64,000 bases of DNA from Stenotrophomonas maltophilia. Its GTDB lineage: Bacteria > Pseudomonadota > Gammaproteobacteria > Xanthomonadales > Xanthomonadaceae. The stretch lies in the NCBI RefSeq assembly GCF_023518235.1, contig NZ_CP090423.1, forward strand, positions 3,223,001-3,287,000, written 5' to 3'. Shown piece after piece: positions 17,331 through 27,997 of this stretch. A program made the translations under genes and the position numbers. Under the pieces are notes generated by a model. That model was not told the DNA's origin and searched no databases. It saw nothing but the letters and a program-made list of their open reading frames with translations. Every line of letters starts with the position of its first letter. Within the stretch, counting starts at the first letter, position 1.

Positions 17331-17376
17331 CCGGGGTCAGATCCCTTCTGCCACGGCAGAAGGGATCTGACCCCGG
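17331..17376. repeat. GGGGTCAGATCC-type long hairpin
   Basis: Near-perfect 20-bp arms starting GGGGTCAGATCCC and ending GGGATCTGACCCC, with a very short loop. The ends match two further hairpins in the window (26132-26172 and 45005-45047), so this is a dispersed element. It lies in the roughly 300-bp gap between the plsB operon promoter and the protease. Confidence 0.7.
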
Positions 17377-25256: not shown

Positions 25257-25877
25257 ATGGCCAAGCTCTATTTCTACTATTCGGCGATGAACGCCGGCAA
25301 GACCACCACGCTGCTGCAGAGCGCGCACAACTACCGCGAGCGCGGCATGCGGGTGGCGATCCTGACCCCGCGCCTGGATGATCGCGCCGGGGCCGGCGTG
25401 GTCGCCTCGCGCATCGGGCTGCGCGCCGACGGCATGGCCTTCGACCGCGACACCGACCTGCAGCACTGGGTGGAACAGGACCTGGCCGCGAACGGGCCGA
25501 TGGGCTGCGTGCTGGTGGACGAGGCGCAGTTCCTGACCCGCGCCCAGGTCTGGCAGCTCAGTGAGGTGGTCGACCAGCTGCGCATTCCGGTGTTGTGCTA
25601 CGGGCTGCGCACCGACTTCCGCGGCGAACTGTTCGAAGGCAGCCAGTACCTGCTGGCCTGGGCCGACGAGATGCAGGAGATCAAGACGATCTGCCACAGC
25701 GGCAAGAAGGCGACGATGACGGTGCGCGTGGACGAGCATGGCCACGCGGTGCAGGACGGCCCGCAGGTGGAAATCGGTGGCAACGACCGCTACGTATCGG
25801 TCAGCCGTGCCGAGTTCAAGAAGATCACCCGTGGCGAAGGGCGGATCGAGCCGATGCAGGCGCCACTGCCGTTGTAA
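25257..25877 (+). CDS. tdk: Thymidine kinase (type II)
   Basis: 206 residues. It phosphorylates thymidine with [15 protein letters not shown] is the P-loop, VLVDEAQFL holds the catalytic region, and [11 protein letters not shown] the lasso. In E. coli-type enzymes the lasso is held by zinc through a Cys pair near TIC-x-CG and a Cys/His in VCRxH. Here these read TICHSGKKA and VSRAEF, so most of the expected zinc ligands are replaced. The gene is close behind the Sel1-like pair. A large inverted repeat begins directly after its stop. Confidence 0.93.
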
Positions 25878-26131
25878 GGGGTGTTCGGCAGGGCTGCGCC
25901 CTGCAGCTGCCGAGGCCGGAGCCAGAGCAACGGCAAAAGCGGGCTATCCGTGGGATGGCGGGGCACTGTGGGTGTACGGGGACGGCGCAAGTACGTCCAT
26001 GTAGCCTTGGTCGCCGCATCCATGCGGCTCACACCCCGCAAACCCACAGTGCCCCGCCTTCGACAGGTCCCCACGGCTGTTGGTAGGTGTCGACCTTGGT
26101 CGACACATCTGTCGGATATCGAAATGGATCC
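25878..26131 (+). repeat. Left module of a large inverted duplication
   Basis: It begins at the base after the tdk stop: GGGGTGTT, a GCAGGGC hairpin, then CAACGGCAAAAGCGGGCT. Next come 17-bp perfect arms (25957-25973 and 26042-26058) around a 46-nt core (25987-26032), CCCCGCCTTCGACAG (26052-26066), and ATCTGTCGG (26107-26115). A GTAG-type hairpin (26083-26106, GTAGGTGTCGACCTTGGTCG) appears inserted here. The whole order is matched in reverse by the right module. There is no credible open frame. Confidence 0.75.
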
Positions 26132-26172
26132 GGGGTCAGGTCCGTTTTCCTTCGGAAAACGGATCTGACCCC
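26132..26172. repeat. GGGGTCAG-type hairpin at the centre of the inverted duplication
   Basis: 19-bp arms GGGGTCAGGTCCGTTTTCC and GGAAAACGGATCTGACCCC with a 3-nt loop and one G-T pair. It is the same family as 17331-17376. It lies at the axis between the left and right modules. Confidence 0.75.
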
Positions 26173-26391
26173 ATGAGTTGTTCCGACAGATCGCGGAAAA
26201 CTGTCGAAGGCGGGGTGGGTCCGGTTGAGGGGGCGTGAGCCGCATGGATGCGGCGACCGAGCTTACATGGACGTACTTGCAACGTCCCCCTCAACCGGAC
26301 CCACCCCGCCAACCCTCGGCAAGCCCGATTTTGACGTTGACGTCGATCCAAGGCAGGTGCAGGGCTGCAAGCCCTGCAACCCAACACCCCT
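26173..26391 (-). repeat. Right module of the inverted duplication
   Basis: Read leftward from the opgD stop it repeats the left module: GGGGTGTT, a GCAGGGC hairpin, CAACGTCAAAATCGGGCT, then 25-bp perfect arms (26286-26310 and 26209-26233) around a 46-nt core (26235-26280) that matches the left core at 43 of 46 positions. After that come the complement of CCCCGCCTTCGACAG (26201-26215) and of ATCTGTCGG (26183-26191). The arm sequences differ between modules but stay perfectly self-complementary in each. Confidence 0.75.
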
Positions 26392-26392
26392 C

Positions 26393-27997
26393 TTAGTACA
26401 ACGTGCGCTCCGGCGCGCCCGCCGGTGGCGGCGTGTACTGGTACAGCCAGGTCTCGGTAAGGGTCTTGCCGCCGCTGCGCAGGAACAGCCGGATATCGAT
26501 CTGCTCGGTGCTGCCTTCCGGTGGCACCAGGTCGAACATCGCACGATAGCCATTGATCTCGCGCAGCGGGCGCGCCGACACGATCTCGACCCGGCCACGG
26601 CTGGTTTCCACCACCGCCTCCACGTCGGCCTTGTCGATCAGCGCGGCCAGTTCGCCGCCTTCGAAATCGACCGCGAAGCGCCAGCTGAAGTACTCGCGCT
26701 TCTTACCGATGATGCCACCCAGCCCGGTGCGGCTGGCCACGCAGTGCGCCAGCGGCGGGCGTGCCGGCGGTTCGGCGCCCCAGTACAGGCGATAGCCGAC
26801 CAGCAGCTCCTGGCCCGGTTGCGGCTTTTCCTTGGGGTTCCAGAAGGCGACGATGTTGTCGAAGGTCTCGTCCACGGTGGGAATCTCCACCAGCTGCACC
26901 GAGCCCTCGCCCCACTCGCCCTTCGGTTCCACCCACAGGCACGGGCGCTTCTCGTAGAACACGCCGTCGTCCTGGTAATGATCGAAGTTGCGGTCACGCT
27001 GCAGCAGGCCGAAGCCACGCGGGTTGCGATCCACGAACATGTTGAAGCGCAGATTGCGCGGGTTCAGCAGCGGCCGCCAGATCCATTCACCGGCACCGGT
27101 CCACAGCGACAGGCCATCGGTATCGTGGATCTCCGGGCGCCAGTCCCAGCCCATGCGGCGGTCGTTCTCGCCCACCTGGTACATGCTGGTGCACGGTGCG
27201 ATGCCCAGCCGCTCGATCGCCTTGCGCGGGTACAGCGCGCTGTCGATATCCATCAGCAACACATCGCCGTTGGTGATCGCAAAGCGATAGGCGCCGGCCA
27301 CGCTGGGCGAATCCAGCAGGCCATAGACCACGATCGTCTCCGAATCGGCCGACGGCTGCTCCAGGTAATAGGCGATGAAATCGGGGAATTCCTCCGGCTT
27401 GCCCATGCCGGTGTCGATTGCCAGGCCGCGCGCCGACTGGCCGTACTGGCCTTCCTTGCCAACCGCACGGAAGTAGCTGGCGCCGAGGAACGCGGCGAAG
27501 TCGCGGTCGGTGTCCTTGCGGGTGTTCAGGCGGAAACCGGCGAAGCCCAGATCGGCCGGCAGCTCGCCATCCTTGATGCCGCTCTTGCCGTAGTTGAATG
27601 CCGCGCCGTCATAGGCCAGCTCCTGCGCCTTGCCGTCGACCACATCGAACATGCGCACCGGCGAGTGGAAGTACAGGCCGAGGTGGAAGAACTTGGCCTG
27701 GAACTTGCCCGGCTGGTCGGCCCACAGGGCGTGGTCCTGGCGGTAGCCGATCGACTGGTACTGGTCCCAGTCCAGCCCTTCCAGGCGCCCTGGCAGTACG
27801 CGCTTGTGGCTCTTGTAGGGCGCCTGCGCCAGCGCGCGCGCCTGGCCCTTCAGCGTGGCGAAGTCGAACGGCTGCGGCTGGCCGAGGCGGCGCAGGCCCA
27901 TCTGGCCGCTCTTGCTGGCCGCGCATGCGGGCAGGGACGGCAGGCCGAATGCAGCCAGGGCGAGGGAGGCATTGCGGATGAAGTCGCGTCGTTGCAT
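26393..27997 (-). CDS. opgD: Periplasmic glucan biosynthesis protein OpgD (MdoD)
   Basis: 534 residues. The N-terminus MQRRDFIRNASLALAAFG is a Tat signal (RRDFIRN), as expected for OpgD, followed by a PACA site. The body has the OpgG/OpgD beta-sandwich signatures: FHSPVRMFDVVDG, FGASYFRAVGKxxQYG-type (here FLGASYFRAVGKEGQYG), LNPRNLRFNMFVDRNPRGFG and VDFEGGEL. OpgD shapes osmoregulated periplasmic glucans. No opgG/opgH is adjacent. Its 3' end abuts the right inverted-repeat module. Confidence 0.93.
   Translation of the reverse strand: MQRRDFIRNASLALAAFGLPSLPACAASKSGQMGLRRLGQPQPFDFATLKGQARALAQAPYKSHKRVLPGRLEGLDWDQYQSIGYRQDHALWADQPGKFQAKFFHLGLYFHSPVRMFDVVDGKAQELAYDGAAFNYGKSGIKDGELPADLGFAGFRLNTRKDTDRDFAAFLGASYFRAVGKEGQYGQSARGLAIDTGMGKPEEFPDFIAYYLEQPSADSETIVVYGLLDSPSVAGAYRFAITNGDVLLMDIDSALYPRKAIERLGIAPCTSMYQVGENDRRMGWDWRPEIHDTDGLSLWTGAGEWIWRPLLNPRNLRFNMFVDRNPRGFGLLQRDRNFDHYQDDGVFYEKRPCLWVEPKGEWGEGSVQLVEIPTVDETFDNIVAFWNPKEKPQPGQELLVGYRLYWGAEPPARPPLAHCVASRTGLGGIIGKKREYFSWRFAVDFEGGELAALIDKADVEAVVETSRGRVEIVSARPLREINGYRAMFDLVPPEGSTEQIDIRLFLRSGGKTLTETWLYQYTPPPAGAPERTLY

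Follow-up and report, generated by a model that had tools for sequence, protein, structure and literature searches.

The 515-nt gap between tdk and opgD of Stenotrophomonas maltophilia holds two facing copies of an RNA-like element whose structure, high copy number and arrangement in facing pairs are established by comparison of its copies. We regard it as fairly probable that this element is a relative of the TwoAYGGAY RNA motif, present at high copy number in inverted pairs, that presents two sites for RsmA and acts as a distributed decoy and/or as a 3′ RNA mark. RsmA/CsrA is its predicted partner; the binding and the decoy function are what we infer from the sequences compared.

The gap between tdk and opgD

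The gap (25878–26392) lies within a stretch of 64,000 nt, here called the window, and its features are collected in Table 1. A previous reading of the bare sequence (hereafter the sequence-only reading) had described an inverted duplication that fills this gap, with a 46-nt core identical at 43 positions, a hairpin at its axis and an outer GCAGGGC hairpin in each half. That observation is real and exact: the gap scores 44 for inverted matches, whereas 60 of its dinucleotide shuffles average 11 and reach 18 at most. Its inverted arms (25971–26044 and 26223–26296, 74 nt) agree at 62 of 74 positions, the best 46-nt stretch between the halves again yields 43/46, and the axis and outer hairpins are all present. 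Absent from that description is that each half of the gap is a closed stem-loop by itself, with an RNA-like three-way junction. The right copy's own stem is fully complementary, and the left copy's (25954–25981 with 26034–26061) is complementary at 89% of 28 positions; the sequences of these outer stems differ between the copies, with self-complementarity kept in each.

Table 1. Features of the tdk–opgD gap and its flanking genes (window positions).
Feature	Position	Strand	Details
tdk	25257–25877	+	PF00265
Outer GCAGGGC hairpin, left half	25888–25904	+	10 nt past tdk stop; read in sequence
Left copy of the 102-nt three-way-junction element	25957–26058	RNA-like (CANGGANG) strand −	R1 match G000:C1:3248957-3249058, 93.3 bits
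Long stem P1, left copy	25957–25981 with 26034–26058		mismatches at 25974 and 25976
Hexaloop AUGGAC of hairpin P2′, left copy	25995–26000	−	
Hexaloop AUGGAU of hairpin P3′, left copy	26018–26023	−	
Short palindrome GTGTCGACCTTGGTCGACAC between the copies	26087–26106		REP-like; recurs beside copies at other places
Axis hairpin GGGGTCAGGTCCGTTTTCC/GGAAAACGGATCTGACCCC	26132–26172 (arms 26132–26150/26154–26172)		separate short repeat
Right copy of the element	26209–26310	RNA-like (CANGGANG) strand +	R1 match G000:C1:3249209-3249310 (−), 115.3 bits
Long stem P1, right copy	26209–26233 with 26286–26310		25/25 paired
Hexaloop AUGGAU of hairpin P3′, right copy	26244–26249	+	GCCGC-AUGGAU-GCGGC
Hexaloop AUGGAC of hairpin P2′, right copy	26267–26272	+	UAC-AUGGAC-GUA
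Outer GCAGGGC hairpin, right half	26359–26377	−	adjoins opgD stop
opgD/mdoG	26393–27997	−	PF04349

A consensus scan found neither a promoter nor an intrinsic terminator inside the gap, and two terminator-like sites fall within tdk. An Rfam scan of the gap at a loose threshold returned nothing near any family's cut-off, mostly microRNA models placed on the long stems. The axis hairpin is absent from some orthologous gaps, and a hairpin resembling the outer GCAGGGC one follows the stop codon at many other places (by eye). Elsewhere in the window (17333–17374), a GGGGTCAGATCC palindrome is similar to the axis hairpin and looks like a separate short repeat.

Structure, strand and loops of the element

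The element is a three-way junction of about 102 nt, in which a 25-bp stem (P1) closes two hairpins, P2 (with a 5-nt bulge) and P3, and its two GGA motifs stand 20 nt apart. A covariance model, R1, was built from 27 copies of the same genome, aligned without gaps and with the structure named. In these copies, 17 of 40 base pairs show two-sided changes, and the covariation score is 0.203, compared with 0.073 for shuffled and at most 0.044 for slid controls. Among 39 distinct copies from ten other genera (47 matches aligned), two-sided compensation is seen in 38/40 pairs and 571 compensated cells, with a score of 0.883 compared with 0.220 shuffled and at most 0.165 with a slid partner; these alignments were fitted to R1, which favours the model's structure, and the slid control bounds that bias. 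A third alignment holds 41 distinct copies (of 42) from records chosen partly by loop pattern. Between genera, the sequences of P1 and P3 are unrelated and the loops are conserved. Energy folding of single copies recovers the junction incompletely: it loses P2′ in the left copy and renders P3′ as a UGGA tetraloop on an A-U closing pair, and for the 52-nt inner part it gives z of 0.18 and 0.10, no improvement on shuffled sequence. The stems of the whole element are very stable (−76.9 and −67.9 kcal/mol; z −9.6 and −7.0), the strong z-scores being due to the long stem.

G-U can pair in the RNA of one strand but not in that of its complement. Among the P1 stems of this genome's copies, the strand that reads GGA in the loops has 74 such wobbles and its complement 16; when stems that are 70% alike are merged, 45:15 events remain (p 7e-5), and the ratio is 46:8 in the ten other genera and 69:10 in the third set. 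P3 of the same genome's copies leans the opposite way (3 on the GGA strand and 12 on the other), P2 is even (3:2), and the wobbles of both hairpins are too few to tell in the other two sets. By this measure, the long stem acts as an RNA structure of a single strand, the GGA strand. The strand that looks functional as RNA is opposite to the gene adjoining each copy; RNA reading through from a gene would therefore contain its near copy in the inactive sense and the far one in the active sense. For single copies the fit is only modest: a gene is able to transcribe the GGA strand in 20/25 cases and the other strand in 15/25.

These wobbles also bear on a role for the other strand, in which the UCC loops of one copy would kiss the GGA loops of its partner in one read-through RNA and create a long-range fold. 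The loops of facing copies are complementary by construction, and the 12:3 lean in P3 favours the UCC strand; the long stem, with its many wobbles, points to the GGA strand, however, and 25 of the 74 places described below are listed as single, and we hold such kissing to be very improbable.

Both loops read C-ANGGAN-G on the strand that runs opposite to the adjacent gene. Of 117 copies in this genome, 112 have a first loop (P2) that fits this pattern on the RNA strand, and 116 have ANGGAN as the second (P3), with a U-G closing pair in one of the 116. The A-GGA and the closing C-G of the first loop stay constant while its N positions take all four bases (A61/C33/T19/G4 and G81/A30/C3/T3, counted on the other strand). 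Loops fit in 38/39 (P2) and 35/39 (P3) copies of the ten other genera, where the N positions of P3 vary too, a conservation that is partly ascertained since model searches favour consensus-loop copies; for its seed matches, the loop-pattern search fixed most of it. A 5-nt loop without N occurs once in the ten-genera set and twice more in the third set, with its records chosen partly by loop pattern.

In the portion of Duss et al. (2014; PMC4005645) drawn on here, the high-affinity RsmE/CsrA site is an ANGGAX hexaloop that sits immediately on a stem closed by C-G; N and X are looped out, and N can be dispensed with at a cost in affinity. A CsrA dimer bridges sites 10–63 nt apart, best above 18, according to the part of a review used here (PMC7652899). 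By sequence and covariation, the element presents what such a Csr/Rsm site calls for, namely at least two ANGGAN hexaloops on C-G closed stems within 10–63 nt of each other; its conserved loop letters are those of the published RsmE/CsrA site, and its free ones are N and X.

From counts in 118 of 123 copies selected by length, we claim no further GGA sites in the flanks. The 25-nt 3′ flank contains GGA in 63/118 copies (shuffle mean 25.8), and the other strand is equally rich (64). In the 40-nt 5′ flank, GGA occurs in 94/118 copies on the GGA strand compared with 64 on the other (shuffles 64.2), and ANGGA is not enriched there (13 vs 17.1).

As to the predicted partner, csrA is represented by one gene in this genome and is present in 39/41 genomes examined, this one included. 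The two genomes without csrA are also without copies of the element, and five genomes of the same genus (G004, G007, G016, G018 and G024) have csrA and no copy.

Copies, pairing and gene setting

Searching the genome with the right copy as DNA gave 78 matches, many of them half-stems. R1, applied to the whole genome with the best 150 of its 4630 first-look candidates scored, gave 146 matches. Of these, 116 score at least 77 bits and seven are weak (26–34 bits); the other 23 are lower-scoring echoes that lie opposite strong copies on the complementary strand and were never counted as copies. Several copies score weakly because of unrelated inserts in a loop or hairpin. Grouping the 123 non-echo matches (the seven weak ones included) within 1 kb yields 74 places, which comprise 48 facing pairs (‘+-’), 25 single copies, one ‘++’ and no ‘-+’. 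Both members are strong in 43 of the 48 pairs, the other five containing one or two weak matches, and the distance within pairs is mostly 120–310 nt. One extra copy (L113:1258-1357), found in fetched regions, turns one ‘single’ into a same-direction ‘--’ pair and, with the 116 strong matches, makes up the 117 rows used for the loop counts. Since 48 of 74 places face as they do here and none is reversed, the inverted duplication is itself the recurring unit.

Unrelated inserts of about 45–90 nt were seen in a loop or hairpin of some copies in this genome (L092, L107 and L128), in a relative (L295) and in another family (L145 and L156); other small repeats seem to land in loops of the element. 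SMAG copies sit inside some of its flanks.

The sequence-only reading had also proposed a repeat that exists in copies and is not random spacer, and this was borne out by the at least 116 strong R1 matches in this genome and by matches across the genus, order and class. R1 matches occur in 23/41 relatives, 62/250 genomes of the order and 60/369 sampled genomes of the class (53/271 genera), this genome included each time; copy counts per genome are lower bounds, the best 150, 98, 16, 150, 13 or 10 candidates having been scored, depending on the search. Among 80 of 120 stretches listed, the loop pattern matched records of Stenotrophomonas, Xanthomonas, Pseudoxanthomonas, Marinobacter and Pseudidiomarina, and also of Cellvibrio, Saccharospirillum, Halieaceae and Methylocucumis, many of the last being metagenome assemblies. 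Facing pairs are found in Marinobacter, Halieaceae and Saccharospirillum records as well, and at 21 loci the neighbours within 500 bp are 13 ‘+-’, five ‘-+’ (all Xanthomonas records) and one ‘++’ (L212). One genome of another genus, G196, has at least 112 R1 matches, and its stem types closely match those of Xanthomonas records. Among 83 of its 112 copies listed, neighbours are 27 ‘+-’, nine ‘-+’, three ‘--’ and one ‘++’, and eight of the nine ‘-+’ neighbours are 29–31 nt apart, inside arrays.

Gene orientation was taken from codon-usage gene calls, which recover tdk and opgD. The 74 places are 31 convergent, 33 codirectional, nine divergent and one one-sided, compared with six convergent, 14 codirectional and 10 divergent among window gaps of at least 100 nt (n=30), so that elements are enriched in convergent gaps (Fisher p 0.04) and depleted in divergent ones (Fisher p 0.02). 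Copies often lie 60–100 nt past a stop codon. The proposal that the repeat is a 3′ module of each gene thus survives as enrichment in convergent gaps, but it does not describe the codirectional (33/74) and divergent (9/74) places, and the polarity is reversed; despite the convergent enrichment, elements also occur away from gene 3′ ends.

The same distribution, and the position past stop codons, would suit a 3′ end module in which the stems stop or protect the transcripts of convergent genes, as a bidirectional Rho-dependent terminator or an exonuclease barrier, with RsmA incidental. Stems of the stability given above and a gap in which the consensus scan found no intrinsic terminator would fit as well. 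We nevertheless think this quite unlikely: a barrier needs neither conserved hexaloops nor a junction, some copies lie beyond an apparent intrinsic terminator of the upstream gene (L063 and L098, by eye), and nine places are between divergent genes.

The history of the element at one site can be followed beside opgD, which was found in 38/41 genomes of the genus and for which 30 loci were obtained, this one included; tdk was found in 27 of them. At least one R1 copy adjoins opgD in 16/30 loci and none in 14/30. Nine loci have a pair together with both genes; in them the left copy begins 83–96 nt past tdk, and its stem is of the type described here in one of the nine (L303) and of other types elsewhere. 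A close relative (L291; opgD 98.7%) has lost the whole inside and kept both outer hairpins, and L293, L296 and L301 retain one copy. This comparison suggests that fixed sites inherit, exchange and lose their copies. The 14 loci without a copy have 840–956 nt between the genes in L297, L300, L302 and L305 and 0–180 nt in the other ten. In those four loci, about 0.7 kb between tdk and opgD looks coding and by eye resembles the gene upstream of tdk in the window.

Such loss or exchange at the same site in relatives, together with high copy number in gaps, the prevalence of inverted doublets and the arrays of G196, invites comparison with mobile DNA repeats. S. maltophilia carries the SMAG/GTAG REPs, intergenic palindromic repeats that also form inverted doublets, and REPINs are inverted REP doublets, for which the inverted doublet is the common unit, as facing pairs are here (as described in the parts of PMC2613905, PMC3733652 and PMC3116915 consulted). 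The facing pair might accordingly be a REPIN- or MITE-like unit, copied by a transposase that acts in trans and reads single-stranded DNA hairpins, with the ANGGA loops as its recognition signal. The same sources, in those parts, give REPs a length of 20–40 bp and most of them a GTAG or CGTC end, whereas the element is a three-way junction of about 102 nt and no GTAG was seen at its ends in the aligned copies, which sets it apart from REP/SMAG. Moreover, a DNA hairpin leaves unexplained the 74:16 one-strand wobbles of the long stem, the coincidence of the free loop positions with the N of ANGGAN and the stem sequences that are unrelated between genera. Mobility is compatible with RsmA binding and does not exclude it; as the explanation of the element, we judge it unlikely.

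Relation to known RNAs and possible role

The nearest known RNA is TwoAYGGAY (RF01731), which likewise has an outer stem enclosing two hairpins with A-Y-GGA-Y loops, and whose alignment to the element covers the whole model on the GGA strand. At E≤10, RF01731 matches 16 places in this genome, every one of them on the GGA strand of an R1 copy; none of the 16 reaches the gathering cut-off of 43 bits, the best scoring 39.6 bits (E 1.6e-4). In another family (G118), one element exceeds the RF01731 cut-off (44.9 bits) and is also an R1 match (61.8 bits) on the opposite strand. Among 20 fetched RF01731-matching loci, not all over the cut-off, L329 holds a strong R1 match (E 4.8e-11) at an over-cut-off place and L319 one of E 1.7e-5, the rest being weaker or without an R1 match. 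The two differ in that the N of the loop is only Y in TwoAYGGAY and any base in the Stenotrophomonas element, and in the more than 100 copies and facing pairs of the latter. Five neighbouring pairs of RF01731 matches within 600 bp (three in G215 and one each in G057 and G158) all share one facing orientation. The cut-off places the element outside RF01731, but it would work like TwoAYGGAY, and the two probably share descent. TwoAYGGAY-type matches at G215:C1:1115914-1116501 and 4093063-4099177, in another family of the order, were also seen as facing pairs, about 0.5 kb apart.

TwoAYGGAY was rated as probably RNA, and as neither cis-regulatory nor a riboswitch, in the part of Weinberg 2010 cited here (PMC2864571). 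A 2014 motif study, in the section drawn on here, predicted CsrA binding for it, with validation said to be in progress (PMC4333381), and we found no later test of that prediction in the literature searched. Nor did searches of the open-licence literature by topic or loop sequence return a published description of the present repeat; its copy number, pairing and strand evidence were not met there.

The decoy RNAs CsrB, RsmY and RsmZ share repeated GGA hairpins of the high-affinity type with the element; each is a single gene with many sites, whereas the element has many dispersed copies with two sites each. Neither RF00195 (RsmY) nor RF00018 (CsrB) has a match over its cut-off in this genome. 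Sub-threshold matches of the RsmY model fall on both strands of the same spots (G000:C1:3319990-3320217 and 2953908-2954626); 10/14 control genomes match too, and these spots are probably terminator-like hairpins. RsmU (sRX061) of Xanthomonas campestris is an RsmA-binding RNA processed from an mRNA 3′ UTR and, in the part of its description cited here, is known from one locus (PMC7694677), unlike the dispersed element. Xanthomonas is said to lack the usual RsmA antagonist (PMC3937308, in part), a statement that predates the report of RsmU.

The decoy and/or 3′ mark that we favour might operate as follows. With more than 100 copies, the element has spread in the manner of an intergenic repeat. 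Read-through RNA from a flanking gene would first run through the near copy, in its inert sense, and then through the far copy, whose GGA sense it would carry. With copies that face each other, such RNA would contain one copy in the binding sense whichever flank it comes from and in whichever direction it runs. An RsmA/CsrA dimer would clamp the two hairpins of that copy, and the sum of copies across the genome would lower free RsmA; and/or RsmA on the element may alter the stability or termination of the transcript that carries it. A 25-bp stem invites RNase III, which counts against this reading.

More broadly, we raise, as possible but doubtful, the idea that in Gammaproteobacteria, and in xanthomonads most, the element forms a scattered, orientation-proof sponge for CsrA/RsmA and is the missing RsmA antagonist of Xanthomonas and Stenotrophomonas. 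If so, any transcript leaking past a gene end would deliver RsmA sites, and free RsmA would report genome-wide read-through and not the level of one dedicated sRNA. A distributed decoy would fill the known gap left by the missing antagonist in Xanthomonas, for which a two-site RNA with more than 100 copies here, and at least 112 in G196, is a direct candidate. With a decoy role, TwoAYGGAY, whose 2010 description came without a function, would gain both a setting and a function, and the element would exemplify an intergenic repeat family kept by RNA structure and not only by mobility.
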